From NCBI RefSeq assembly GCF_007988945.1, contig NZ_BJVC01000002.1:62001-126000 (forward strand): a stretch of 64,000 nt of DNA, written 5' to 3'. Positions 7,923 to 45,146 of this stretch are shown piece after piece. The translations under genes were made by a program, and so were the position numbers. This stretch comes from Swaminathania salitolerans. Lineage in GTDB: Bacteria; Pseudomonadota; Alphaproteobacteria; Acetobacterales; Acetobacteraceae. The notes beneath the pieces are model-generated. The model was not told where the DNA came from and did not search any database. It saw only the letters and a list, made by a program, of their open reading frames with translations. Position 1 is the first letter of the stretch, and each line of letters starts with the position of its first letter.

Positions 7923-9638
7923 ATGGGATATCAGATCGACCGTGCCCTTTACGCCAGTCTGTTCGGGCCGACCAAGGGGGATCGCATCCAGCTCGGCGAT
8001 ACCTGTCTTCTTGCAGAGATCGAACACGACTACACAGTCTATGGCGATGAATGCGTGTTCGGCGCGGGGAAGGTGATCCGCGACGGAATGGGGCAGAATT
8101 CCGGTCTCGGGCCTGAATACACCCTGGATTGTGTGATCACCAATGTCGTCGTGATCGATCATACCGGGATCTACAAGGCCGATATCGGTATCAAGAACGG
8201 CCGTATCTCCGGGATCGGCAAGGCGGGCAATCCGGACGTCATGGCCGGGGTCTCGCCCGATCTGGTGATCGGGGTCAATACCGAGGTGATCTCGGGTGAG
8301 GGCAAGATCCTGACCGCGGGCGGTGTCGATACCCATTTCCATTACATCTGCCCGACCCAGCCTGAGACGGCACTGGCAAGCGGCATCACGACGCTGGTCG
8401 GAGGCGGAACGGGGCCGGCCACGGGCTCCCTTGCGACGACCTGCACGCCGAATCCGGAATATCTGCGCCTCATGATGCAGGCGACCGACAATGTCCCTGT
8501 CAATTTCATTTTCTCCGGACGGGGCAATTCCTCGCGCCCGGACGGAATGAAGGAACAGATCCTCGCAGGAGCCGCGACCCTCAAGCTGCATGAGGACTGG
8601 GGGACCACGCCGGCGGCGATCGATACCTGCCTCGGCGTGGCCGACGCCTATGACGTGCAGGTCACGATCCATACGGATTCGATCAATGAGAGCTGCTCGG
8701 TCGAGGATTCCATCCGCGCCTTTGCCGGGCGAACCATCCACACCTATCACTCCGAAGGGGCGGGAGGCGGTCATGCGCCCGATCTCATGCGGGTGTGCGG
8801 CGAGCCCAATATCCTCACCAGTTCGACGAGCCCGACCAATCCCTACACCGTCAATACGGTTGCGGAACATCTCGATATGCTGATGGTCTGCCATCATCTC
8901 GACAAGGATATTCCGGAGGATGTTTCCTTCGCTGCAAGTCGCATCCGCCCGCACACGATTGCGGCCGAAGGGGTCATGCACGATATCGGCGCCATTTCGA
9001 TGATGACATCGGACAGCCAGGCCATGGGGCGCGCGGGCGAGGTCGTCACGCGCAGCTGGCAGATTGCCGATCTGATGAAAAAGCAGCTCGGTACGCTGGC
9101 GGAGGACAGCGCGAGGAACGACAATTACCGCATCCGGCGCTATGTCGCGAAATACACGATCAACGGAGCGATCGCTCACGGGATCGGCCATCTCGTGGGG
9201 TCGATCGAAAAGGGCAAGGTGGCCGATCTCGTCCTGTGGTCTCCCGCATTTTTCGGAACACGCCCCGAACTCGTTCTGAAAAGCGGTTTCATCGCCTATG
9301 CGCAGATCGGCGATGCGAACGCATCCATTCCCACGCCGCAGCCCGTCATCATGCGGCCCATGTGGGGGGCGACGGCCGCCGGAACCGCCCGGACCTCGAT
9401 GCTCTTCGTCAGCGAAGCGTCGCTCAGTGAAGGGCAGGTCTCGTCCTACGGTCTGGGCAAGCGGATCGAGCCCGTCAGACGCTGTCGTACCATCGGAAAG
9501 GCGGACATGATCCTCAACGATGCGACGCCGTCCGTTACGGTCGATCCCGTGACCTATCGGGTCGCGATCGACGGACAGGAGATCGATATCGCACCGGCGG
9601 AAACGGTGCCGATGAGCCGTCGCTTCAGTCTTTTCTGA
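7923..9638 (+). CDS. ureC: Urease alpha (catalytic) subunit
   Basis: A 571-residue urease catalytic subunit that hydrolyses urea to ammonia and carbamate in the cytoplasm. Visible active-site elements are the metal-binding HFH (about residues 138-140, in THFHYICP), the lysine to be carbamylated in [11 protein letters not shown] (near 221), [31 protein letters not shown], the flap [21 protein letters not shown], and [10 protein letters not shown] with the last metal ligand. Many segments resemble Helicobacter UreB. HFHYICP and [12 protein letters not shown] are slightly atypical but keep the ligands. No ureD, E, F or G follows; the next gene is a porin. Confidence 0.94.
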
Positions 9639-34503: not shown

Positions 34504-35317
34504 TGCGATGTCCGCGCCTTCCCACGCTGGTGAGACCGGTAATCAGTCGACGGAAGAGAGCATAAACGCCCCCGGGTCCGTCATCGCGTTCATCACGTCG
34601 ACCGAATACGGCCTCGAAACCGGAAAACTCTCCGGCCACCACCCGTTCCGCCAGCAAGTCCATGGTTTCCTCGAGAGCGGCTTCCAGCGTGGCGGTCAGG
34701 GAAGAGGGGCGGAGCCCTTCTCCTGCCTCGAGCGGCGTGCCGAACAGGACGGCGATCTCCGACCGGCTTCCGGCTCCGCTCACATATTCCAGTGCGACCG
34801 GAACGATCAGGGCAGTCCTGCATGATGCCGCGAGATGGGCGACGCCGGGGCGGATCGCCAGAGGACGCTCGCGCACATCCGCGAAGCGTCCCTGGGCCGT
34901 GATCCAGAAAACGCCGCCGCGCTTCAATATGGACCGGGCCTCTTGCAGGAAGCGTCTTATCGAAGCCGGCTCTTTCGGGTCGAGGCCGATGAAACCCGCC
35001 CGGTTCAGAAAGGGATAGGTCGAAAGTGCCCTGGCCTCGATGGGACCGAAACCGGGCCGGTCCTTGAACAGCTTCGTTTGCAGCGTCGCAAATACGGCCG
35101 GATCCCACCAGGAAGGATGGTTCGTGTAGAGTAGCACCCCCTGACCCGCCCCGGGCCGGGGAATGGCACCGGCGACGAGCAGGGAGGCAAAGCGGCTTCG
35201 CACGCGCGAGGCGAGGGCCTGGGCCACGCGCGCGGAGAGGAACGGCGAACGCCCGTACGCGCGCGTGAGGTCACCCGGCACGGGCCAGCCCGGGTTCTCT
35301 CCCCCTGACATCCGCAT
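34490..35317 (-). CDS. Acyltransferase (PlsC-like) in carotenoid operon
   Basis: A 275-residue PlsC/LPLAT-type acyltransferase. The catalytic NHxxxxD motif is NHPSWWDP (about residues 65-72); the second block FWITAQGRFADVRERP stands where PlsC has FPEGTRS. In the staphyloxanthin pathway CrtO acylates the glycosyl carotenoid; this unrelated-fold enzyme could do that job here. That is inference from operon position. The start at 35317 overlaps the preceding gene by 47 bases, and a start a few codons later is possible. Confidence 0.78.
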   Translation of the reverse strand: MRMSGGENPGWPVPGDLTRAYGRSPFLSARVAQALASRVRSRFASLLVAGAIPRPGAGQGVLLYTNHPSWWDPAVFATLQTKLFKDRPGFGPIEARALSTYPFLNRAGFIGLDPKEPASIRRFLQEARSILKRGGVFWITAQGRFADVRERPLAIRPGVAHLAASCRTALIVPVALEYVSGAGSRSEIAVLFGTPLEAGEGLRPSSLTATLEAALEETMDLLAERVVAGEFSGFEAVFGRRDERDDGPGGVYALFRRLITGLTSVGRRGHRNAQT

Positions 35318-36890
35318 CCAGGCAATCGGCCGCGATCCACCCGGACATCAGGGCCATGGGCATTCCCGGGCCCGGATGGGCGCTCCCGCCCGCGAAATAG
35401 AGGCCGCCCAGTCCGGCGGAGCGGTTCGCCGGTTTGAAGCCGCCATCGAGCCGACCGTGACTTGCGAGACCGTAAATGGCGCCCGCCTGCGGGGCGTAGC
35501 GCCTGTGGATGTCCATCGGTGTGAGATGATGCTCGCACTGGATGCGGGACCGCAGATCCGGCATGCCACCGGCCCGCTCGAGCTTTCTGAGGATCGTCTC
35601 GCGGTAACCGGGAAAAATCTCCGTCCAGTTCTGCCCCGGGCGGAGATAGGGCGTGTGGACGAGAACATAGAGCGCCTCCCCACCGGGAGGGGCGACCCCG
35701 GGTTCCGTCCGGGCGGGAGCTGCGAGATAGCAGGTCGGGTCCGGCGCCGGGCGTCCCTCGCGGTAGATGGCTTCGAATTCTTCCTCGGGATCGCGAGAGA
35801 AGACGAAATTATGGTGGGCCAGATGGTCATAGGCCTTGTTCAGCCCGAGATAGAGCACGACCCCCGAACAGGCCGGTTCGCGCTTCTTCCATTGCCGCCG
35901 GAACTGCCGCCATGCTGCGGGTGCCCGATCCCGGTCGATCAGCTCCCGCATCGTCCGCACCGAGTCGGCGTTGGAAACGACAGCAGAGGCGCCGATCGTC
36001 TCGCCATTCTCCAGAACAACGCCATGGACGCGCCTGCGGTCATGAAGAATCCTGACGACCCGGCTATCCGTCCGGAACGTGACTCCCTGTTCTTCGGCAA
36101 TTTCCCGCAAGGCTTGGGGCACGGCGCGCGTCCCTCCGACAGGATACCAGATGCCCTCATCGACCTGCATATGAGCGATGCCCGTCAGCACGGCTGGCGC
36201 CTGCAGGGGGTTCGAACCGACATACTGGGTGAAATGATCGAATACCTGCACGGCCTTTGGATTGGCGATGCGCTTCCTGATCTCGCGCCCCAGGGTCGAG
36301 TGCATGCGCAGGGCCGCGATGTCGCGCATGACCTCGGGGCGGAACGACTGCCCGAGATCGAGCGTGTCCCCGATGCCACCGACGGATTTCCAGAACACGA
36401 ACCGTCTGGAAATGTCATGCAGGGTCTCGCTCATCGCGATGAGATCGCGATATCCCTTTCCGTCACCGGGGTGGCGATCCTCGAGAGAGCGCGCCATGGC
36501 CTCGATATTCTCGAGAAGATCGAGCCGGTCGCCATCGTCGAAGAAACACCGCCATTGCGGGTCGAGGCGATGCATTTCGAGGCGATCCTCGAGAGTGTGG
36601 CCGGCCTCGTTCATGATCCTGCGCAGCACCGAGGGGAGGGTGAGGATCGTCGGTCCCATGTCGAAACGAAAACCCTGGTCCTTCCACTCGGCGGCTTTTC
36701 CTCCGGTCCAGTCATTGGCCTCGCACACGACCACGTCATGCCCCCGCGCGCTGAGCGTGCAGGCCGCGGCCAGACCGCCAAGACCTGCGCCGATGACCAC
36801 AACCGGACCGTCGGAGGCGCGGCCCGGAGCCTGGGCGCCAAAGGCGCGGGGACCGGGCGCGTGCGCGCTGGCGAAACCTGGCTTCTTCAT
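35271..36890 (-). CDS. Carotenoid desaturase/oxidase, CrtN/CrtP family
   Basis: A 539-residue flavin-dependent enzyme of the phytoene desaturase family. ATG 36890 overlaps the stop of the upstream paralogue by one base. After about 28 residues comes the FAD-binding GAGLGGLAAACTLSARGH with a following acidic residue (VVVCEAN). GFRFDMGPTILTLPSVL and the C-terminal GLGGLYFAGGSAHPGPGMPMAL are family signatures. Having two such enzymes plus an aldehyde dehydrogenase is the C30 arrangement, in which one desaturates and the other oxidises a terminal methyl group. Which does which cannot be told from sequence alone. The 46-base overlap with the acyltransferase is unusual. Confidence 0.85.
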   Translation of the reverse strand: MKKPGFASAHAPGPRAFGAQAPGRASDGPVVVIGAGLGGLAAACTLSARGHDVVVCEANDWTGGKAAEWKDQGFRFDMGPTILTLPSVLRRIMNEAGHTLEDRLEMHRLDPQWRCFFDDGDRLDLLENIEAMARSLEDRHPGDGKGYRDLIAMSETLHDISRRFVFWKSVGGIGDTLDLGQSFRPEVMRDIAALRMHSTLGREIRKRIANPKAVQVFDHFTQYVGSNPLQAPAVLTGIAHMQVDEGIWYPVGGTRAVPQALREIAEEQGVTFRTDSRVVRILHDRRRVHGVVLENGETIGASAVVSNADSVRTMRELIDRDRAPAAWRQFRRQWKKREPACSGVVLYLGLNKAYDHLAHHNFVFSRDPEEEFEAIYREGRPAPDPTCYLAAPARTEPGVAPPGGEALYVLVHTPYLRPGQNWTEIFPGYRETILRKLERAGGMPDLRSRIQCEHHLTPMDIHRRYAPQAGAIYGLASHGRLDGGFKPANRSAGLGGLYFAGGSAHPGPGMPMALMSGWIAADCLDADVRGREPGLARAG

Positions 36891-38497
36891 CAGACCGATC
36901 CTCTGCTGCATTCCGCGACGAGAGGGGGAGATGCAATGCGCCGATCCGGCGCGATCGCTCTCGTCTTTCCCAGATCGCCGATCATGAGATCCGCGCTGAT
37001 GCGGGCCCCCTCGAAGATTACCGGAAGACCGCTGCCCGGATGCGTGCCTCCCCCGGCAAGGTAAACGCCTTTCACATCGTCGAAACGGTTGTGCGGGCGC
37101 CTGTGAAGCATCTGACCCAGCGAGTGGGCGAGGTTGAAGACCGCCCCGCGATGCACGGCGTGATCGTCCTGCCATTCCTGCGGCGTGACGGTTTTCTCGA
37201 CGAGTATCCTCTCCTCGATATCGCCGAAACCCGCATCCCTGAGGCGGGCCAGAACGATCCGGCGCGCGCGCTGCCGCGCGGACTCATCCCAGACGAAACC
37301 GTTTTCGTGAAGATTGCCGACGGGCATGAGAACATAGAGCGCCGTACATCCCTCGGGCGCCTGACCGGGATCGGTGACGCCGGCATTCTGCACATAGAGC
37401 GAGGCCTTGTCGGAGAGGACCTTCCCCTCCTCGATCTCAGCGAAGTTCCGCTCGTAGTCCCGGGAGAGAAAGATCGTGTGATGCGCCTGGTCGGGCATCT
37501 CGCCCCTGAGGCCGAGATACATCATGAAGGTCGAGCACGAGAATTTCTTTTCGGCAATGCGCTCGTTGCGCCATTTCCTGCGGGTCGTGTTGGGGAGAAG
37601 CCTCTGGATCGTGTGGGCGAAATCGCCATTGACAACGACCGCGTCGGCACGGATCTCCCCCTGTCCGGTCCTGACCCCTGTCGCGCGCCCGTTCTCGGTG
37701 CGTATTTCCTCTACCGGCGTGGAGAGCGCGAACTTCACCCCCAGTGCCTCCGCCGCCTGTTTCATGGCAGCCATAACGGCTTCGGTGCCCCCTCGGGGGT
37801 GAAAAATGCCGAATTCGTGCTCCATGAAACTCAGGATCGTGAAGAGCGACGGGCAGCGATAGGGCGACATGCCCAGATATTTGCTCTGGAAGGAGAAGGC
37901 GAGACGCGTGCGGGGATCCTTGAAATAGCGGGCGAGATCGCTGTCGATCGAACGCAGCGGGGCGAGAACCGGAAGGGCCCTGATCATGTCCGGACGCACG
38001 AGATCCAGCGCCGAGTTGAAGGGCCGCTGGAGCGGCGCGATGAAGCGATCGAACTTGCCCCTGTTGTCGTCGAGGAAGCGCCGGACGTGTTTCGCGTCCT
38101 GTGGCGAGATCTTTGCGATCTCCGCTTCGAGACGCTCCGGGTCGGTCGTGACGGCGAGACGGGGACCGTTCTCGAAAACGAGATCGTAGAGATGTTCGAG
38201 CCTGGTCAGGCGTACCATCTCATCGAAGGAAAAGCCGCATCGGGCAAATATCTCCCGGATGATCTCGGGATAGAGAAAGAAGGTCGGACCGATATCGAAA
38301 CGGAATCCCTCGAACTCGAAACAGGAAGACCGACCGCCGACACGGTCCTCCTTCTCGAAAACGGTGACTTCGGCACCCTCATGGGCAAGCAGCATTGCAG
38401 ATGCAAGCCCCCCCGGCCCGGCACCGATCACCGCGATCCTGCGTGAGGCGAGAGACTGGTTTTCTGAAGAACGGTCCATTTGGGCGCTTGCGGCCAT
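36890..38497 (-). CDS. crtN: Carotenoid desaturase, CrtN-like
   Basis: A 535-residue phytoene-desaturase-family protein. FAD site RIAVIGAGPGGLASAMLLAHEG (about 20-41), then FEKEDRVGGRSSCFEFEGF and RFDIGPTFFLYPEII. The C-terminus has VKGVYLAGGGTHPGSGLPVIFEGA, the second FAD-contact signature. The best guess is desaturation of a C30 backbone (4,4'-diapophytoene, or squalene-derived material, as known for Methylobacterium-type pathways). No diapophytoene or squalene synthase gene is in the window. It lies 129 bases after the aldehyde dehydrogenase gene. Confidence 0.82.
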   Translation of the reverse strand: MAASAQMDRSSENQSLASRRIAVIGAGPGGLASAMLLAHEGAEVTVFEKEDRVGGRSSCFEFEGFRFDIGPTFFLYPEIIREIFARCGFSFDEMVRLTRLEHLYDLVFENGPRLAVTTDPERLEAEIAKISPQDAKHVRRFLDDNRGKFDRFIAPLQRPFNSALDLVRPDMIRALPVLAPLRSIDSDLARYFKDPRTRLAFSFQSKYLGMSPYRCPSLFTILSFMEHEFGIFHPRGGTEAVMAAMKQAAEALGVKFALSTPVEEIRTENGRATGVRTGQGEIRADAVVVNGDFAHTIQRLLPNTTRRKWRNERIAEKKFSCSTFMMYLGLRGEMPDQAHHTIFLSRDYERNFAEIEEGKVLSDKASLYVQNAGVTDPGQAPEGCTALYVLMPVGNLHENGFVWDESARQRARRIVLARLRDAGFGDIEERILVEKTVTPQEWQDDHAVHRGAVFNLAHSLGQMLHRRPHNRFDDVKGVYLAGGGTHPGSGLPVIFEGARISADLMIGDLGKTRAIAPDRRIASPPLVAECSRGSV

Positions 38498-38625
38498 CAG
38501 GCGTGACTTTCTTGATACCGGGTGAGGCGAGGCTGAGCGATGAGCGCGCGATCCGGAGCGGGCGCACGCGTGAGAGACCCAGATGAAAACGGCGGTCGGG
38601 TCATACGGTTTCGCCCGGTCGCGCT

Positions 38626-39960
38626 TTAACCGCGGGCGGAGCGGAAGCCCGCAGGGAGGAGATGGAACGCGAAACGGCGTCGGACCGATACCGAGACCGG
38701 TCGCGTCAGGGCCCGGAGGCCCTCTATGCCGCGCGTCACGCCATAACCGCTCTGTTTGGCACCGCCGAAGGGGAGGCGGGGATCCGCGCTCGGAACGATC
38801 ACGTCGTTGATCGTGATGGTGCCTGCCTGGATCCGTCCGGCCAGAGCATTCGCGGCCTCTTCCGGTCCGAAAATACTGGCGCCCAGACAGTGTTCCGCTC
38901 TTTCGTCGAGGGCGACCGCCTCATCCATGGAACTGACCCCGATGATTGCGAACCAGGGGGCGAAGAGGTCGAGATCCGCCAGATCCGCATGGGCCGCGTC
39001 GAGACAGAAGATATGGATCTGCCCCAGACTCAGAACATCCCCGCCTGTTTGTGCCACACGCGCGCGGAGCGATTCGAGGCCGGGCGGGAAGGGACCTTCG
39101 TCCTCGATCCGGTCTCCCAGAAGGCAGCGCAACTGTTCCACCAGTCTCGGTACGGCGTGTTTGTCGATGAACACGCGGCGCGGAGCGATGCAGGTCTCCC
39201 CACGGTTCAGCAACGCCGAGAAGCAGAGTGCGCGGGCCACACGGGAAAGATCGGCATCGGGAAGAACGAACACGGGGTCGGCCCCCGACAGTTCCATGAT
39301 TGTGGGTGTCAGCGTGGCAGCGGCGGCTGCCGCAACCTTGCGACCCGTTTCGCGTCCACCGGTCAGGATGATGAGGTCATGGCGCCGGGCACAGGCATCG
39401 GCGCCCGCATCCTCCTGCAGAAGGGTGACAACGCCGCCGGGAAGACCGGCCCGGCGCAGAAGCGTCAGGAACAGGCTGAGCAGGGCTGTGCGTCCGGGGG
39501 CCGGTTTGAGGATGACCGTATTGCCCGCAACGATCGCCTGGAGGGTCTGTATCCCCGCAAGCATGAGCGGATAGTTTCCCGGAGCGAGGATGAGGATCGT
39601 ACCGAGCGGGCGTCGCTCGACCCGGCTCGTAACGCCTGCCAGCCATAAGGGACGCCCCAGGAGGGAGAGCGTCCCGGGCGAAAGAATCCTGCGTGCGTCC
39701 GTCAGGAGAAACCTGCAGGCAGAGAGAAGCGGAAGGATTTCCGCGACGAGAACGGTGCTGGCCGGGCGGTCGCGCATGAGATGCAGGATTTCCGGAAGCG
39801 CCCCGGTAAAGCCGCGCAGGAAGCGGCGCAGGATACGCAGGCGCGCATTCAGCGCGGTTTCACGCCAGAGGGCAAAGGCGGCCGAGGCGATATACGCTGC
39901 ATCCCCTGCGGATTTAGGAGCGGAAACGGGGTCCCTCACATTCGGGTAAGACGCGCGCAT
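38626..39960 (-). CDS. aldH: Aldehyde dehydrogenase of the carotenoid operon
   Basis: A 444-residue ALDH-superfamily enzyme, NAD(P)-dependent. ATG 39960 has GGAG six bases upstream; longer starts at 39987 and 40008 lack that. Visible motifs are ILAPGNYPLMLAGIQTL and AGNTVILKPAP (cofactor site), the general-base region MELSGADPVFVLPDAD, and the catalytic Cys in NRGETCIAPRR. PFGGAKQSGYGVTRG is the C-terminal signature. As first gene of the crt operon it probably oxidises a C30 carotenoid aldehyde to the carboxylic acid, like staphylococcal AldH. Symbol by analogy. Confidence 0.82.
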   Translation of the reverse strand: MRASYPNVRDPVSAPKSAGDAAYIASAAFALWRETALNARLRILRRFLRGFTGALPEILHLMRDRPASTVLVAEILPLLSACRFLLTDARRILSPGTLSLLGRPLWLAGVTSRVERRPLGTILILAPGNYPLMLAGIQTLQAIVAGNTVILKPAPGRTALLSLFLTLLRRAGLPGGVVTLLQEDAGADACARRHDLIILTGGRETGRKVAAAAAATLTPTIMELSGADPVFVLPDADLSRVARALCFSALLNRGETCIAPRRVFIDKHAVPRLVEQLRCLLGDRIEDEGPFPPGLESLRARVAQTGGDVLSLGQIHIFCLDAAHADLADLDLFAPWFAIIGVSSMDEAVALDERAEHCLGASIFGPEEAANALAGRIQAGTITINDVIVPSADPRLPFGGAKQSGYGVTRGIEGLRALTRPVSVSVRRRFAFHLLPAGFRSARG

Positions 39961-40307
39961 GGCCTGCTCCGATCCGTTGAGAGGCATTAACCCGTATGAC
40001 CGGAGCAAGTTCCGGTCCCTCCCGTCCCGGCCCCTGACGGGATGACTCCCGTGCCGCGTTCCGGCCTGGACGTATCGGCGAGGGTAGCGGTGACGCGAGC
40101 TTCCGTCTCTTTGTGATTATCGTGTGATATATCACGGAAAAGAGAAAACAAAAAACGAGACTCACGGCGCCTTTTCCCCTATCTTCAGTAATGCAGAAAT
40201 AAAAATATAGATTTCATAGTATAGACGTTTCGATATCTGCGGGATTCGGAATCGATCCTGTTCATAAAGATCACATTTCTGAATCCGCGAACAGGCGGGG
40301 ATGAGAT
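39961..40307. promoter_or_regulatory. Divergent regulatory region between carotenoid and kinase operons
   Basis: A 347-base region with no gene. The left half (39970-40080) is GC-rich with strong local hairpins: CCGGAgcaagtTCCGG near 39999-40014 and GACGGGA-TGAC-TCCCGT near 40036-40052. On the minus strand these would lie in the leader of the aldehyde dehydrogenase gene. The middle has the palindrome GTGATATATCAC. The right third is AT-rich (40190-40270) and probably carries the promoter of the rightward operon. Confidence 0.5.
40124..40135. promoter_or_regulatory. Operator-like palindrome GTGATATATCAC
   Basis: Exact 12-bp palindrome, preceded by a partial copy GTGATTATC at 40113-40121. It is well placed to control the leftward crt operon, the rightward kinase operon, or both. 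Spacing is shorter than FNR or CRP sites, so a GntR/TetR-like regulator is more likely; none is encoded nearby. Confidence 0.45.
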
Positions 40308-41849
40308 ATGAAAAATTCCACGCAGGCAATCATGGCGATCGATGAGGGAACCTCAGGCACGCGCTCGGCTCTCGTCGGAGCCGATGGTGCGGTGACCGCG
40401 CTGCATTATGAGCCCCTGACAGTCAACGCACCGCGCCATGGCGTGGTAGAACAGGATGCCAATCATCTGCTCGAGCGCACCGTCTCGGTCTGCCGCAAGA
40501 CGATCGCGGAAGCCAGGGAAAACGGTGTCGAGATCGTCGCTCTCGCGGTCGCAAACCAGCGCTCGACCGGCGTTCTGTGGGACAAGCAGACGGGCAGGGC
40601 GATCGTACCGGCCATCGTCTGGCAGGATACGCGTTATGCGTCTCTTCTGGCGCAGATGGAAAGCCGATGGGATCGCGAGCTGTTCGAAGTCGCGGGTCGT
40701 CCGATCGCAGGTTACGCCCTTTATTACTGGGCGGCCCAGCATATCCAGAACACCCCGGAGGTTTCTGCAGCATGGTCGAGGGGAACGCTGGCGTTCGGAA
40801 CCGTCGATACCTGGCTCCTGTGGAATCTGTCCCGTGACAAGATTGTCGTGACCACGCCGACGAATGCCGCTGCAGCCGGGTCGTTCGATCTGCGCCGCAA
40901 CATCTATTACGACAAATGGATAGAGGCGCAGGGCTTCCCGTCCGCTCTCCTGCCCGAACTCAGGGAGGAGAGCGACGATTTCGGATACACCGATGAATCG
41001 ATGCTCGGCATATGCGTGCCGATCAAGGCATCGTGCGGCGATCAGCATGGCGGCATGATCGGCCTGGGCTGCATCGGAACCGGTCAGGCCATGTGCCTGC
41101 ACGGTACCGGATCCTTCGTCGATCTCGTGACGGGGGAGAGCTTTCCGAAAAACACGGGTCTCAACGAGACGACGTTCAGCCTGATTGCGTGGCGTCGGCG
41201 CCAGAGATCGATTTTTGCGGTCGAGACGTTTTCTGCCACGACGGGATCCGCACTGAACTGGGCCTGCAACCAGATGGGATGGTTCGAATCCCCCCAGCAG
41301 ATCAGCGAGCTCGCCGCGCATGTGGACGATGCGCATGGGTTGATGTTCATGCCGACCCTGACCGGGTTGCGCCTTCCCCAGCTCTGTGTCGATGCGAGAG
41401 CGACGATGGCCGGCCTGTCGATGAGCCACAACCGCGCGTCTCTCGCGCGGGCGCTTCTGGAAGGGGTCGCCCATTCGGTGGTGTCGTGTACGGATGCGAG
41501 CAGCGCGGTGGCCGATCTCGCAGTAAGCGAAATCATTGTCGGTGGCGGGCTCTCATCGAGCACCACGCTTCTTCAGCTCCAGGCAGATCTTGGCGGGGTG
41601 ACGGTTCGTCATCGCCCGGGTTCGGCGCGCGCAACGCTTCGCGGCGCTGCGTTCCTCGCAGGATGCGACGGAACGTTCTGGGATGGGCTCGAGGCCGCAC
41701 GCGCGACCCTTCCGGAGGGGACGCTCTATCATCCCGCGATCTCGTCCGATGAGCGTCTCCAGAGGAGGGGCTATTGGCACGCGATCGCTGCCTCGGAAGT
41801 GGAGCGCGTCGCGTCGGGTTTCTATGCAGAACCCAGGCATGTGGCATGA
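40308..41849 (+). CDS. FGGY-family kinase, glycerol-kinase-like
   Basis: A 513-residue carbohydrate kinase. The N-terminal phosphate loop is AIDEGTSGTRSAL, followed by ANQRSTGVLWD, PAIVWQDTR, FGTVDTWLLWNLS, SCGDQHGGMIG and HGTGSFVDLV. The layout is closest to glycerol kinase. However, the residue equivalent to E. coli GlpK Glu84 (in NQRET) is Ser here, and the catalytic-Asp region is GDQHGGMIG rather than GDQQAALFG. It may therefore phosphorylate glycerol or a different polyol. It heads an operon with a GlpD-like dehydrogenase (ATGA overlap) and an alkyl-DHAP-synthase-like flavoprotein. GGGGATGAGAT ribosome site. Confidence 0.82.
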   Translation: MKNSTQAIMAIDEGTSGTRSALVGADGAVTALHYEPLTVNAPRHGVVEQDANHLLERTVSVCRKTIAEARENGVEIVALAVANQRSTGVLWDKQTGRAIVPAIVWQDTRYASLLAQMESRWDRELFEVAGRPIAGYALYYWAAQHIQNTPEVSAAWSRGTLAFGTVDTWLLWNLSRDKIVVTTPTNAAAAGSFDLRRNIYYDKWIEAQGFPSALLPELREESDDFGYTDESMLGICVPIKASCGDQHGGMIGLGCIGTGQAMCLHGTGSFVDLVTGESFPKNTGLNETTFSLIAWRRRQRSIFAVETFSATTGSALNWACNQMGWFESPQQISELAAHVDDAHGLMFMPTLTGLRLPQLCVDARATMAGLSMSHNRASLARALLEGVAHSVVSCTDASSAVADLAVSEIIVGGGLSSSTTLLQLQADLGGVTVRHRPGSARATLRGAAFLAGCDGTFWDGLEAARATLPEGTLYHPAISSDERLQRRGYWHAIAASEVERVASGFYAEPRHVA

Positions 41850-43525
41850 CAGGGCTCCTCTCCTGCGAATCGGCGCGGGTCAGGTCCATGGCCCGCGCGC
41901 GCAATGCTCCCGTGACGCTGAACAGACGGGACGCCTTTGCAGCACTCGGATCGGAAACATTCGATATCCTGATCGTGGGCGGTGGCGTTACCGGGGCGTA
42001 TTGCGCATTCGATGCCGCCCTGCGCGGCTATCGCGTTGCGCTCGTTGAAAAGGACGATTTCGCGTCCGGCACATCCTCCAAATCGTCGAAAATGGTTCAT
42101 GGGGGACTTCGCTACATCGAGCAGGGCAATCTCGGTCTCGTTGCTCATGCTCTGCTTGAGCGCCAGCGTTTCCGACGCAATGCGCGTCATCTTGTGCAGC
42201 GTCTTCCCTTCCTGTTTCCCGTGTCGGCAAGCGGGGGCGTATTCGATCCGCGTCTCGCGCGTGCGTTTGACGGGTTGCTCTGGACATACGATCTGGCCGG
42301 GGGCTGGCGCGAGGGTATCCTTCACAAGCGTATCGATCCCGCGGCCGTACTCGCTCATTGCCCGACCCTGAAGCCGGAGACCCTGCGCGGCGGGCTTCTC
42401 TATTATGATGGGCGCGTGGACGATGCGCGTCTTACCCTTTGTCTCATCCGGTCCGCAGCGGCTCTTGGTGCGGTGGTCCTGAACCGCGCCCGGGTCGCCG
42501 AACTCTCGCGCTATCGTAGCGGGCGTGTCGACGGAGCGATCGTACGGACGGATGAGGGGCGGGAAATTCGCGTGCGTGCGCGCTCTGTCGTCATGGCGAC
42601 GGGCATATGGCTGCGGGACTGGAAAGGCACGTGCGACGACACGCCTGCCTTGCAGGTCCGCCCTGCCAAGGGCGTGCATGTCGCGGTTCCCTGGATGAAA
42701 ATCCGCAACGATTGCACGCTCACGATACCGATGAGGGGAACGAAGCGCCGTGCCTCCATCACGCGATGGGGCGATGTTTCCTATATCGGAACCTCGGATA
42801 CCGATTATACGGGCGATCTCGACGATATCCGGTGCAATCGCGACGAGATGCTTGCCCTGCTGGAAGGGGCCAGCGACTCCCTGAATGTCACGCTGTCGGC
42901 GGATGACGTGGTCGGAACGATTGCAGGCTGTCGTCCTCTGGTCGCATCGGGACATGAGGGCAATACGGTCGATGTCAGTCGGGACCACACGGTTCATACC
43001 GGCCGGGATGGCGTCGTTACGATTGTCGGCGGCAAGATGACCACGTCACGCCATATGGCCGAGCAGACGATCGACGCGGTGGGCCGGATCCTCGGCCGGA
43101 GGCGTCCATGCCATACCAGGCACAGCTATCTTCTCGGTGCCGCCGGATACGACCCCCAGGCGACGCTCGCGACCGGAGGCATGGCCGCTCATCTCGCAGA
43201 GCGCTACGGAATGGAGGCCTGTTTCGTCAGCGATCTCATGGCCGCGGATGCAGGGCTTTCGGCCCCTCTTGTCGAGGGCCTCCCCTACACGCGTGCCGAG
43301 GCGGTCTTCGCGCTCCGCCACGAGATGGCGATGAGTGTGGACGATATTCTCTCCCGGCGAACCAGAGCGCGCTTCATGGCGCGCGATGCCTCTGCAAAAG
43401 CCGCGGAGGCCGTCGGGGAAATCGTGGCGCGGGAACGCGCGCTCGCGCCGGAAGTGATCCGAGCGCAGGTCGCCGATTACCGCGCCGATATCGCGCGGGA
43501 AAAAGCCGCATTACAGGAAGGATAG
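41846..43525 (+). CDS. glpD: Glycerol-3-phosphate dehydrogenase/oxidase (GlpD-like)
   Basis: A 559-residue FAD enzyme using the ATG at 41846 inside the kinase stop; an ATG at 41888 would remove a 14-residue leader. FAD site FDILIVGGGVTGAYCAFDAALRG (about 39-61), then VEKDDFASGTSSKSSKMVHGG and LRYIEQGNLGLVAHALLERQR, the GlpD signature. The C-terminal helical domain (YTRAEAVFALRHEMAMSVDDILSRR) is typical. It oxidises sn-glycerol 3-phosphate, or a related polyol phosphate, to the keto form with transfer of electrons to quinone or oxygen. Four bases separate it from the next gene. Confidence 0.87.
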   Translation: MTGLLSCESARVRSMARARNAPVTLNRRDAFAALGSETFDILIVGGGVTGAYCAFDAALRGYRVALVEKDDFASGTSSKSSKMVHGGLRYIEQGNLGLVAHALLERQRFRRNARHLVQRLPFLFPVSASGGVFDPRLARAFDGLLWTYDLAGGWREGILHKRIDPAAVLAHCPTLKPETLRGGLLYYDGRVDDARLTLCLIRSAAALGAVVLNRARVAELSRYRSGRVDGAIVRTDEGREIRVRARSVVMATGIWLRDWKGTCDDTPALQVRPAKGVHVAVPWMKIRNDCTLTIPMRGTKRRASITRWGDVSYIGTSDTDYTGDLDDIRCNRDEMLALLEGASDSLNVTLSADDVVGTIAGCRPLVASGHEGNTVDVSRDHTVHTGRDGVVTIVGGKMTTSRHMAEQTIDAVGRILGRRRPCHTRHSYLLGAAGYDPQATLATGGMAAHLAERYGMEACFVSDLMAADAGLSAPLVEGLPYTRAEAVFALRHEMAMSVDDILSRRTRARFMARDASAKAAEAVGEIVARERALAPEVIRAQVADYRADIAREKAALQEG

Positions 43526-43529
43526 GCAG

Positions 43530-45068
43530 ATGATCAGCAAGGATGCTATCGCCCGTGGCTATAATCACGGGGATTATGTCGTGGGTGCCCCTACGCCTCC
43601 CGCTTATGCCCGTTCCATGACCGAAATCGGCAAGACCGCCGGTCTTGCACGGGATCCCGTGATCGTCCCGAAACCGGTACTCGCGCAGCTCGAAGCGATT
43701 GCCGATCGGGTCCAGACCGCACGCGAGGACATCGTCACCCAGACGCGCGACTGGTGGTCGGGTACGAGAATCAGTGAGACGTCGGGCAGACCTGCCGTGA
43801 CCGAGGGCGCATTCGTCCGTGTATCGCGGGTGGAACAGGTGCAGGAGATCATGAAACTGGCCTTCGCTCACGCCATCCCGGTCACGGCCTCTGCGGGACG
43901 TTCGAATGTGACGGGCGCAGCCTTGCCCTTGCGGGGGGGTATCATCCTCGATCTCTGCGGTCTGAACCGCTTCATAGGGTTCGATGCCGGGAGCCAGCTG
44001 GCGGAAGTCGAGGCAGGTATTTTCGGCGATGTCTTTGAGACAGTTCTCCAGAGAGAACACGGCGTCACGATGGGACATTGGCCCTCATCCTTCGGAATAA
44101 GCACCGTCGGGGGCTGGATAGCCTGTCGGGGGGCGGGTCAGCTTTCCACCCGGTATGGGAAGATCGAGGACATGGTGCATACGCTCGATGTCGTTCTGGC
44201 CGATGGCCGTCTGGTCACGCTTGGCGGTTACCCACGCGCGGCTACCGGACCCGATCTCAAGCAGATCTTCATCGGCTCGGAGGGAACGCTCGGCATCATC
44301 GTGAGAGCACGGCTCAGAACGCATAGACTGCCGGACCATGCTTCAGCCCTCTGTTTCGGATTCCAGAGTTTTGCGGCCGGCCTGGAAGCCTGCCGACGCA
44401 TCATGCAGGCTGGCGCCACTCCGGCAGTTCTGCGACTGTACGACGCACTGGAGAGCGGCATCCAGTTCGACCGTCCCGGGACAAACGTCCTCCTCATAGC
44501 CGATGAAGGTCCGGAGCCGATCGTCTCGACCTGTCTTGAGCTCTGTCGTTCCATCTGCGAGGAAGAAGGAGAGACCCTTCCCGCAGAAGCGATCTTCGAA
44601 CGCTGGCTGGATACGCGCTATGCGACGGAAAAACCGGCCGAAGGCTTCACGCAGACGAGCGGATTCGTGGCTGATACGCTCGAGATGGCGGGAAGCTGGG
44701 GATGTCTCCCGCAGATTTATGACGAGGTGGTGGCTGCGATCAATGAGGTTCCCGGAACGCTTGCGGGCTCGGCGCATCAGTCCCACGCCTATCTCGAGGG
44801 GGCCTGTGTCTATTTCTCACTCAGGGCGGATATTCCCCCTGCGCACCGCGAGGAATGGTACCGCACGGTCTGGAAGTCTGTGAACGACGTCCTTCTGCGA
44901 TACAGGAGAGACGTCACGATAAGTCATCATCACGGCGTCGGTCTCCTGCGCGGACCATATATGGAGCCGGCACTCGGAGAAGGGTTCGAGGTTCTCAGGA
45001 CAATCAAGAAGGCGCTCGACCCCCGGAACATTCTCAATCCCGGCAAGATGGGATTTTCTCTCTCCTGA
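43530..45068 (+). CDS. FAD-binding oxidase, alkyl-DHAP-synthase-like
   Basis: A 512-residue vanillyl-alcohol-oxidase-fold flavoprotein. The FAD_binding_4 domain has PVTASAGRSNVTGAALP, LDLCGLNRFIGFD, MGHWPSSFGISTVGGWIACRG, YGKIEDMVHTLDVV and GPDLKQIFIGSEGTLGIIV. The C-terminal ISHHHGVGLLRGPYM is the active-site HHH motif known from alkyldihydroxyacetonephosphate synthase (AGPS). The similarity to AGPS is specific, not just to GlcD. Bacteria of this group are not known to make plasmalogens this way, so the substrate is open; an alkyl- or acyl-dihydroxyacetone phosphate is a guess. Third gene of the kinase-GlpD operon. Confidence 0.82.
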   Translation: MISKDAIARGYNHGDYVVGAPTPPAYARSMTEIGKTAGLARDPVIVPKPVLAQLEAIADRVQTAREDIVTQTRDWWSGTRISETSGRPAVTEGAFVRVSRVEQVQEIMKLAFAHAIPVTASAGRSNVTGAALPLRGGIILDLCGLNRFIGFDAGSQLAEVEAGIFGDVFETVLQREHGVTMGHWPSSFGISTVGGWIACRGAGQLSTRYGKIEDMVHTLDVVLADGRLVTLGGYPRAATGPDLKQIFIGSEGTLGIIVRARLRTHRLPDHASALCFGFQSFAAGLEACRRIMQAGATPAVLRLYDALESGIQFDRPGTNVLLIADEGPEPIVSTCLELCRSICEEEGETLPAEAIFERWLDTRYATEKPAEGFTQTSGFVADTLEMAGSWGCLPQIYDEVVAAINEVPGTLAGSAHQSHAYLEGACVYFSLRADIPPAHREEWYRTVWKSVNDVLLRYRRDVTISHHHGVGLLRGPYMEPALGEGFEVLRTIKKALDPRNILNPGKMGFSLS

Positions 45069-45116: not shown

Positions 45117-45146
45117 ACGGGGATGCGACCCAACCGGCATCCCCGT
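45117..45146 (+). terminator. Perfect 10-bp hairpin after the kinase operon
   Basis: ACGGGGATGC (45117-45126) pairs exactly with GCATCCCCGT (45137-45146), loop of ten, 49 bases beyond the stop at 45068. No T-run on the plus strand. Likely end of the operon. Confidence 0.5.

Follow-up and report, generated by a model that had tools for sequence, protein, structure and literature searches.

A 64,000-nucleotide stretch (the window, G000:C2:62001-126000) of the 2.92-Mb genome of Swaminathania salitolerans (Acetobacteraceae), from contig NZ_BJVC01000002.1, carries a real, conserved and uncharacterised three-gene operon that is probably catabolic and not a maker of ether lipids. It encodes an FGGY kinase that resembles the glycerol kinase GlpK and has lost its glycerol-binding Glu84 (P0001), a GlpD-like flavin adenine dinucleotide (FAD) dehydrogenase (P0002) and an FAD flavoprotein that resembles alkylglycerone phosphate synthase (AGPS; P0003). 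We propose tentatively, with rather less than even confidence, that the trio converts a glycerol substituted at C1 into the corresponding substituted dihydroxyacetone phosphate (DHAP) and then cleaves this at C1 to yield DHAP.

Conservation of the operon

The kinase gene (40308..41849) encodes 513 residues with FGGY_N and FGGY_C domains, the GlpD-like gene (41846..43525) encodes 559 residues with DAO and DAO_C domains when read from its overlapping ATG, and the flavoprotein gene (43530..45068) encodes 512 residues with FAD_binding_4 and FAD-oxidase_C domains. All three frames are intact and tightly packed on the plus strand, with the kinase stop and the GlpD-like ATG overlapping as ATGA and a 4-bp gap before the flavoprotein gene, which confirms the tight packing noted in a first-pass annotation made from the sequence alone. 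The P0002 start at 41846 was chosen over an in-frame ATG at 41888, and the searches with P0002 used a 545-residue form.

With the flavoprotein as query, the genome_contigs collection yielded at least 569 confirmed stretches, of which the best 80 were kept; these are the closest relatives by construction, and the counts below hold for them and do not extend to more distant ones. The named carriers belong to Pseudomonadota and Actinomycetota, with flavoprotein identities of 56-67%. The order kinase-GlpD-flavoprotein, hereafter the cassette, is kept: the GlpD-like gene lies just upstream of the flavoprotein gene in 80/80 loci and the kinase precedes it in 79/80, the locus L034 stopping at a contig edge and L031 and L067 having a kinase cut by one. 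The GlpD-to-flavoprotein spacing is -4 or -7 (an overlap) in 62 of the 80. Because the order is kept in the 80 nearest relatives, chance packing is implausible; the earlier suggestion that the three genes form one pathway is supported by the order kept in relatives from two phyla, and the survey across genomes proposed as a check came out positive. In the Brucella cytisi locus (L020, 4815-7953), the kinase gene and the GlpD-like gene are both split in two, either a broken copy or a sequencing fault.

Profile searches also showed recurrent neighbours. A major facilitator superfamily (MFS) transporter lies upstream in 76/80 loci and a glycerol-3-phosphate (G3P) antiterminator (PF04309) downstream in 70/80, which together suggest an imported compound and a G3P-like signal. 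An ABM-domain protein is encoded near the cassette in 48/80 loci, and an alcohol dehydrogenase within 2.6 kb, downstream and on the same strand, in 43/80 (zinc type in 37, iron type in 6). Two of the 37 zinc-type enzymes (L040, L046) belong to a different, AdhC-like group. A formaldehyde route, considered from the AdhC-like enzyme and an S-formylglutathione-hydrolase-like neighbour recognised by eye in Cupriavidus (L040), was rejected: the L040 dehydrogenase is only about 33% identical to the cassette zinc enzyme.

Active-site residues, gene context and phylogeny

P0001 scores 332.4 bits against the GlpK model NCBIfam TIGR01311, below its cut-off of 590.35. Its Ser86 (codon 40563-40565) stands at the position of GlpK Glu84, which we take to be part of the glycerol site and which is present in both GlpKs compared, those of E. 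coli and of the host genome itself. Among 76 full-length cassette kinases this position is Ala in 70, Cys in 4 and Ser in 2, and all 33 AGPS-linked kinase rows examined, among them P0001 and 15 cassette copies, lack Glu there. The GlpK positions R83, W103, D245, Q246 and F270, presumably functional, are kept in 76/76 cassette kinases and in P0001 (R85, W105, D245, Q246, F270). Arg131 and Arg136 are also kept in all 76; two arginines gained so close to the lost Glu suggest an acidic or polar distal end for the usual substrate.

The first-pass annotation had noted Ser in place of Glu84, and the substitution is real; it supports a kinase remodelled away from glycerol. The host genome has a separate GlpK-like/GlpD-like pair on contig C1 with Arg-Glu at the GlpK 83-84 position, so glycerol is unlikely to be the substrate of the window operon. 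The earlier view that the operon does not serve ordinary glycerol use is probably right. A further kinase and GlpD-like pair occurs in the host genome at G000:C2:279000-286000 (L178), with Gly-Asp at the same position.

P0002 scores 263.2 bits against the GlpD model NCBIfam NF008899, below the cut-off of 360. The E. coli GlpD positions R54, Y55, R317, R332 and K354, which we take to be functional, are kept in P0002 and in 80/80 relatives. Two further positions, H232 and T375, were dropped, other residues being found at those places in the E. coli chain.

By sequence, P0003 has its nearest solved relatives in Dictyostelium ADPS (2uuu) and guinea pig AGPS (4bby), with phmmer E-values of 2.4e-45 and 8.9e-36; a profile search gave 9.7e-109 for ADPS, 8.8e-101 for AGPS and 9.2e-67 for D-lactate dehydrogenase. 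P0003 falls below the cut-off of the GlcD model (142.5 against 567.9 bits), and the sequence searches thus agree with the claim that it is nearer to AGPS than to 2-hydroxyacid oxidases. The three motifs that had been called AGPS-specific are all present (YGKIEDMV at 209, GSEGTLG at 249, HHHGVG at 466); GSEGTLG is not specific, since the alignment has it in D-lactate dehydrogenase too. The predicted structure of P0003 (predicted local distance difference test 81.3, predicted template-modelling score 0.87) retrieved AGPS first with Foldseek (4bby_C, E 2.9e-30); fold comparison as a whole did not separate AGPS from D-lactate dehydrogenase.

According to the available part of a review (PMC3509576), R352, Y508 and R447 matter for ADPS catalysis, R447 by mutagenesis, and Y508 is the likely base; the reaction is ping-pong and redox-neutral, with an adduct between N5 of the oxidised flavin and the DHAP carbon. 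ADPS residue numbers exceed the 2uuu chain index by 3, and with this offset R352, Y508 and R447 fall on Arg, Tyr and Arg. In P0003, Arg302 (codon 44433..44435) aligns with Arg352, Tyr428 (codon 44811..44813) with the proposed catalytic base Tyr508, and His466-468 (codons 44925..44933) belong to the HHHGVG motif; all are on the plus strand, and the equivalents of R352, Y508 and HHH are kept in P0003 and in 80/80 relatives. Arg447 is lost: its place is taken by Ala370 (codon 44637..44639, +) in one alignment and by Glu371 in another, and among the relatives the Ala370 position is A in 57, S in 12 and G in 11. From 368 to 372 the relatives have K, then S or A, A/S/G, E/D and G; an Arg lies within 364-376 in 27/80, mostly at 375. 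Lys368 is invariant among the 80 and might stand in for the lost Arg447. The insertion after the Arg352 strand has 6 residues in P0003 and 33 in 2uuu, where we would link it to the lipid channel. Stand-alone homologues of the host's own family also have the 6-residue form, which makes the insertion a weak criterion for AGPS.

The loss of Arg447 was then set against gene context in 38 further AGPS-type loci and 17 loci from cassette host genomes, six GEH-type loci being left out. A kinase was scored as a match at 1e-10 to the cassette-kinase profile, which missed the FGGY kinase of L216, so that absence by this measure is unproved. The pattern is clear, the counts coming from related and not independent loci: Arg447 is present in 30 of 32 loci without a kinase or GlpD in the same operon (the exceptions are L172 with Ser and L145 with Asp), and in one (L113) of 18 loci that have a linked kinase or GlpD and are not of the Pseudomonas type; three of these 18 (L114, L161, L162) are cassette copies. 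The four Pseudomonas-type loci (L167, L169, L170, L176) keep Arg447 and have a 26-residue insertion. A GlpD-like gene in divergent orientation accompanies 13 of the 16 loci from cassette host genomes that lack a kinase or GlpD in the operon. A separate Arg447-positive AGPS-like gene was found in 15/40 cassette carriers, among the first 20 of 46 paralogue matches. In thirteen loci from actinobacterial carriers (L217, L218, L220-L230), a GlpD-like gene diverges from the Arg447-positive AGPS-like gene, and no FGGY kinase was found in these stretches with the cassette-kinase profile at 1e-10.

A tree of 79 rows is divided by a branch with 100/99 support into side A (20 rows) and side B (59 rows, including P0003). 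Side A holds ADPS (2uuu), 15 stand-alone bacterial proteins and the four Pseudomonas-type proteins; on side B, the 42 cassette rows form one group at 100/99. The other 17 rows of side B comprise six with FGGY kinase and GlpD, two with GlpD only (L148, at a contig end, and L149), seven with FGGY kinase only, L115 with a four-carbon acid sugar kinase and PdxA, and L145 with none of these. The tree has no outgroup and is midpoint-rooted, with a program warning for long branches (2uuu 3.0, L115 2.5, P0003 0.69); deep placements are therefore uncertain, and 'sister group' would be one reading.

Similar partners recur outside the cassette. FGGY kinase and GlpD accompany an AGPS-like gene in L110, L112, L113, L146, L147 and L150, and FGGY kinase and glycerol dehydrogenase do so in Roseibium (L111) and Enterococcus (L116). 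In L111 and L143, a xylulokinase-like kinase is accompanied by ATP-binding cassette (ABC) transporter genes, those of L143 being recognised by eye, and G3P antiterminators recur in Enterococcus and beside E. coli ygcU. On a Methylobacterium nodulans plasmid (L115, 5776-9391), an AGPS-like gene forms a tight cluster with pdxA and the gene for a four-carbon acid sugar kinase. This context was sought again in 372 Alphaproteobacteria genomes, where four matches at 1e-70 came from other known contexts or had PdxA unexamined, and in plasmids, where one of two matching records was L115 itself; it stays a single case. In Raoultella (L216, 4805-9552), an AGPS-like flavoprotein with Glu at the Arg447 place is followed by FGGY and PfkB kinases, with a DeoC/LacD aldolase gene divergent.

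A putative C1-cleavage route and its alternatives

From these genes and residues we infer a substrate class, an order of steps, a cleavage and roles for the accessory genes. The substrate would be small and end in a diol, a 1-substituted glycerol (R-X-CH2-CHOH-CH2OH) being the most likely kind. The kinase would phosphorylate the free primary hydroxyl, and the GlpD-like enzyme would oxidise C2 and pass the electrons to quinone. The flavoprotein would then act as a one-sided AGPS, in which Tyr428 takes the C1 proton, C1 bonds to flavin N5, and the substituent leaves C1 and is replaced by water, yielding DHAP and R-XH. In other carriers, the alcohol dehydrogenase of the same operon would process R-OH.

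Cleavage at C1 would make the trio complete and would explain why AGPS residues are kept and why an antiterminator and alcohol dehydrogenases lie nearby. The 80 cassette loci contain no homologues of ygcR, of ygcN or of the L216 aldolase, and a single weak ygcQ match outside the cassette (L082), so that, if the path ends there, producing the central metabolite falls to the trio itself. Further, the L110-type GlpD, glycerol dehydrogenase and PdxA contexts would mean that different enzymes lead to the same DHAP skeleton.

Several observations weigh against this proposal. Arg447, important by mutagenesis in the synthase, is gone from the flavoprotein, and positions 368-372 hold no Arg, either in P0003 or across the 80 relatives. 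In VIA-align, the predicted P0003 structure is tied between D-lactate dehydrogenase (Z 33.3) and AGPS (Z 32.9). In E. coli, ygcU lies beside electron-transfer flavoprotein (ETF) genes and the gene of an FAD oxidoreductase whose match to ETF-quinone oxidoreductase (ETF-QO) is sub-threshold, which suggests a net oxidation; the pairing of the L216 flavoprotein with a PfkB kinase and a DeoC/LacD aldolase is closer to what sugar breakdown would need. At residue 136 the window kinase has Tyr, against Arg in 76/76 relatives, and neither a transporter nor an antiterminator adjoins the window operon. Lastly, that the bond broken is an ether is something we infer.

The main alternative, somewhat less likely than C1 cleavage, is that the flavoprotein is a net dehydrogenase in the breakdown of polyols or polyol-like acids. 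The kinase and GlpD-like enzyme would act on the diol end and the flavoprotein would oxidise either a carbon adjacent to the keto group or the polyol in its free form, with electrons going to ETF, quinone or oxygen. The loss of Arg447 would fit such a role, as would the Ldh-EtfAB enzyme (7qh2) among the close folds, the company of ygcU in E. coli (the ETF genes ygcR/ygcQ, the ferredoxin gene ygcO and the FAD protein ygcN), the sugar-type partners in L216, and the combination in L111 and L143 of ABC genes and a xylulokinase-like kinase. The cassette loci argue otherwise: AGPS-type residues are kept in all 80, the ygcR and ygcN partners are missing and the one weak ygcQ match lies off the cassette, GlpD already supplies a redox step, and the annotated recurrent neighbours include no aldolase or isomerase, that of L216 having no homologue there.

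A special case of C1 cleavage, the breakdown of long-chain alkylglycerols derived from ether lipids, appears improbable. The preference of ADPS for C16 chains, given in the available part of the same review (PMC3509576), would be consistent with it, as would the co-activation of the P. aeruginosa trio with the phospholipase C PA3464 by GliR, reported in the available text of PMC8151288. The Pseudomonas type has the 26-residue insertion and Arg447, neither of which is found in the cassette, and such substrates therefore suit the Pseudomonas branch better; moreover, the transporters are MFS or sugar-type ABC proteins. More improbable still is that the window copy is a decaying remnant with a drifted substrate range, for which the long P0003 branch (0.69), Tyr136 and the missing transporter and antiterminator speak, and against which stand three open, packed frames and the conservation of the listed residues. 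Least probable of all is ether-lipid synthesis by a true AGPS making alkyl-DHAP from DHAP supplied by the kinase and GlpD: the nearest solved structures by sequence and Foldseek, the kept R352, Y508 and HHH, and the same guess by the authors of PMC8151288 for the P. aeruginosa trio are set against the lost Arg447, the missing channel insertion (6 against 33 residues in 2uuu), the 100/99 branch between P0003 and ADPS, the transporter, antiterminator and alcohol dehydrogenase around the relatives, and the separate Arg447-positive gene in 15/40 carriers.

The first-pass annotation had left open whether an alkylglycerol phosphate is made or cleaved. Making it is disfavoured by the lost Arg447, the position outside the AGPS group and the import and breakdown neighbours; cleaving it is the leading reading and may be right. 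With somewhat lower confidence than for the C1 cleavage itself, we suggest that the operon represents an undescribed and widespread bacterial route in which a glycerol ether is phosphorylated, oxidised at C2 and split at its C-O bond through a flavin-N5 adduct, the split needing neither oxygen nor net redox, and that E. coli ygc is the same module with another C2 oxidase. If true, this would be AGPS chemistry used for breakdown and a bacterial way to break the glyceryl ether bond; alkylglycerol monooxygenase is described as the only known enzyme for alkylglycerols in the available parts of PMC7911779 and PMC9192799. A flavoprotein group next to the mammalian ether-lipid enzyme is now placed in a conserved operon that probably serves breakdown.

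Host genome, flanking features and related systems

The cassette is rare in the family of the host. In a sample of 200 Acetobacteraceae genomes it occurs in one, the window's own, and the genus is represented by one genome in the collection. A flavoprotein match at 1e-40 was found in 17/200 genomes, two of them (G175, G124) at 44% identity and 14 lower. PF04309 gave no match in the host genome, in a search whose control was positive in 4 of 14 named genomes, and the best host MFS match to the cassette MFS is only 27% identical.

Upstream of the kinase lies an AT-rich leader (40100..40307, +), as read from the sequence, with a palindrome GTGATATATCAC (40124-40135, +) that is a possible operator; in the same leader, a search for longer-arm repeats found nothing and one for plus-strand promoter-like sites found none. 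A repeat search placed a perfect 10-bp stem 3' of the flavoprotein gene (45117..45146, +), which has no T run and possibly marks the transcript end. This stem is absent from the list of terminator-like sites, which has a weaker site at 45036-45055, inside the end of the flavoprotein gene. Facing the operon on the minus strand is an iron alcohol dehydrogenase gene (P0004; 45453 to 46625 or 46700, depending on the start). It had been proposed to handle a released alcohol or aldehyde, a role that finds no support: P0004 is 34-37% identical to the iron enzymes of six related loci, it has a match at E 1e-100 in 2/30 relatives with the host genome itself included, and the related operons carry another iron (6/80) or a zinc (37/80) enzyme. 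It was thus dropped as a pathway member. Elsewhere in the window, an Rfam match to the 5' ureB small RNA family lies at 8078-8370 on the minus strand (71.8 bits), and the open reading frames at 35271-40008, also minus, encode two desaturase-like FAD proteins and an aldehyde dehydrogenase, which we take to resemble a carotenoid cluster.

Among known systems, the glycerol genes glpK-glpD share with the window operon a kinase and an FAD glycerol-phosphate dehydrogenase; the window operon differs in its lost Glu84, in both proteins scoring below the NCBIfam cut-offs and in its third gene. ADPS and AGPS share with P0003 the fold, the FAD domain, R352, Y508 and HHH, and differ in having Arg447 and the channel insertion and in lying across the main tree branch. 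D-lactate and D-2-hydroxyglutarate dehydrogenases are alike in overall fold (Z 33.3), whereas D-lactate dehydrogenase has GEHG where P0003 has HHHG.

In the open-licence literature we found no described pathway for the operon and one paper on a related operon (PMC8151288). In its available part, PA3026-PA3025-PA3024 of P. aeruginosa are an operon under GliR that encodes an FAD oxidoreductase, a GlpD homologue and an FGGY kinase with no assigned function; its deletion gave no phenotype on glycerol or BIOLOG plates, and the authors propose alkylglycerone phosphate synthesis. The same part reports clustered orthologues in 4/1748 genomes, with eight further strains arranged similarly, from a survey that queried the Pseudomonas type with its regulator. 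The three proteins in one operon are as in the cassette; our Pseudomonas-type loci, equated with PA3026-24 by gene order only, differ in the order AGPS-GlpD-kinase, the kept Arg447, the 26-residue insertion, HQH and the grouping with ADPS.

A further parallel is the ygc cluster of E. coli, where ygcU has a match in 5049/5426 genomes. The link came through L163, which like L164 carries the ygc neighbourhood; a DNA search with the Citrobacter flavoprotein gene found no match in E. coli genomes, and a single search of the open-licence literature for the ygc genes yielded a promoter paper only. In E. coli AR_0077 (L185, 5064-15759), the order is ygcE (kinase), yqcE (MFS), ygcW (short-chain dehydrogenase/reductase, SDR), ygcU, ygcS (MFS), ygcR/ygcQ (ETF), ygcP (G3P antiterminator), ygcO (ferredoxin) and ygcN (FAD oxidoreductase with the sub-threshold ETF-QO match). 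An SDR here replaces GlpD, and ETF and ferredoxin genes are added. Like the cassette, the cluster has an AGPS-like flavoprotein without Arg447 (Val in L163 and L164), an FGGY kinase without Glu84, an MFS transporter and a G3P antiterminator, and its flavoprotein lies on the same side of the main tree branch. The operon is thereby tied to the ygc cluster, and the puzzle behind the annotation 'FAD-binding oxidoreductase' becomes a testable question.

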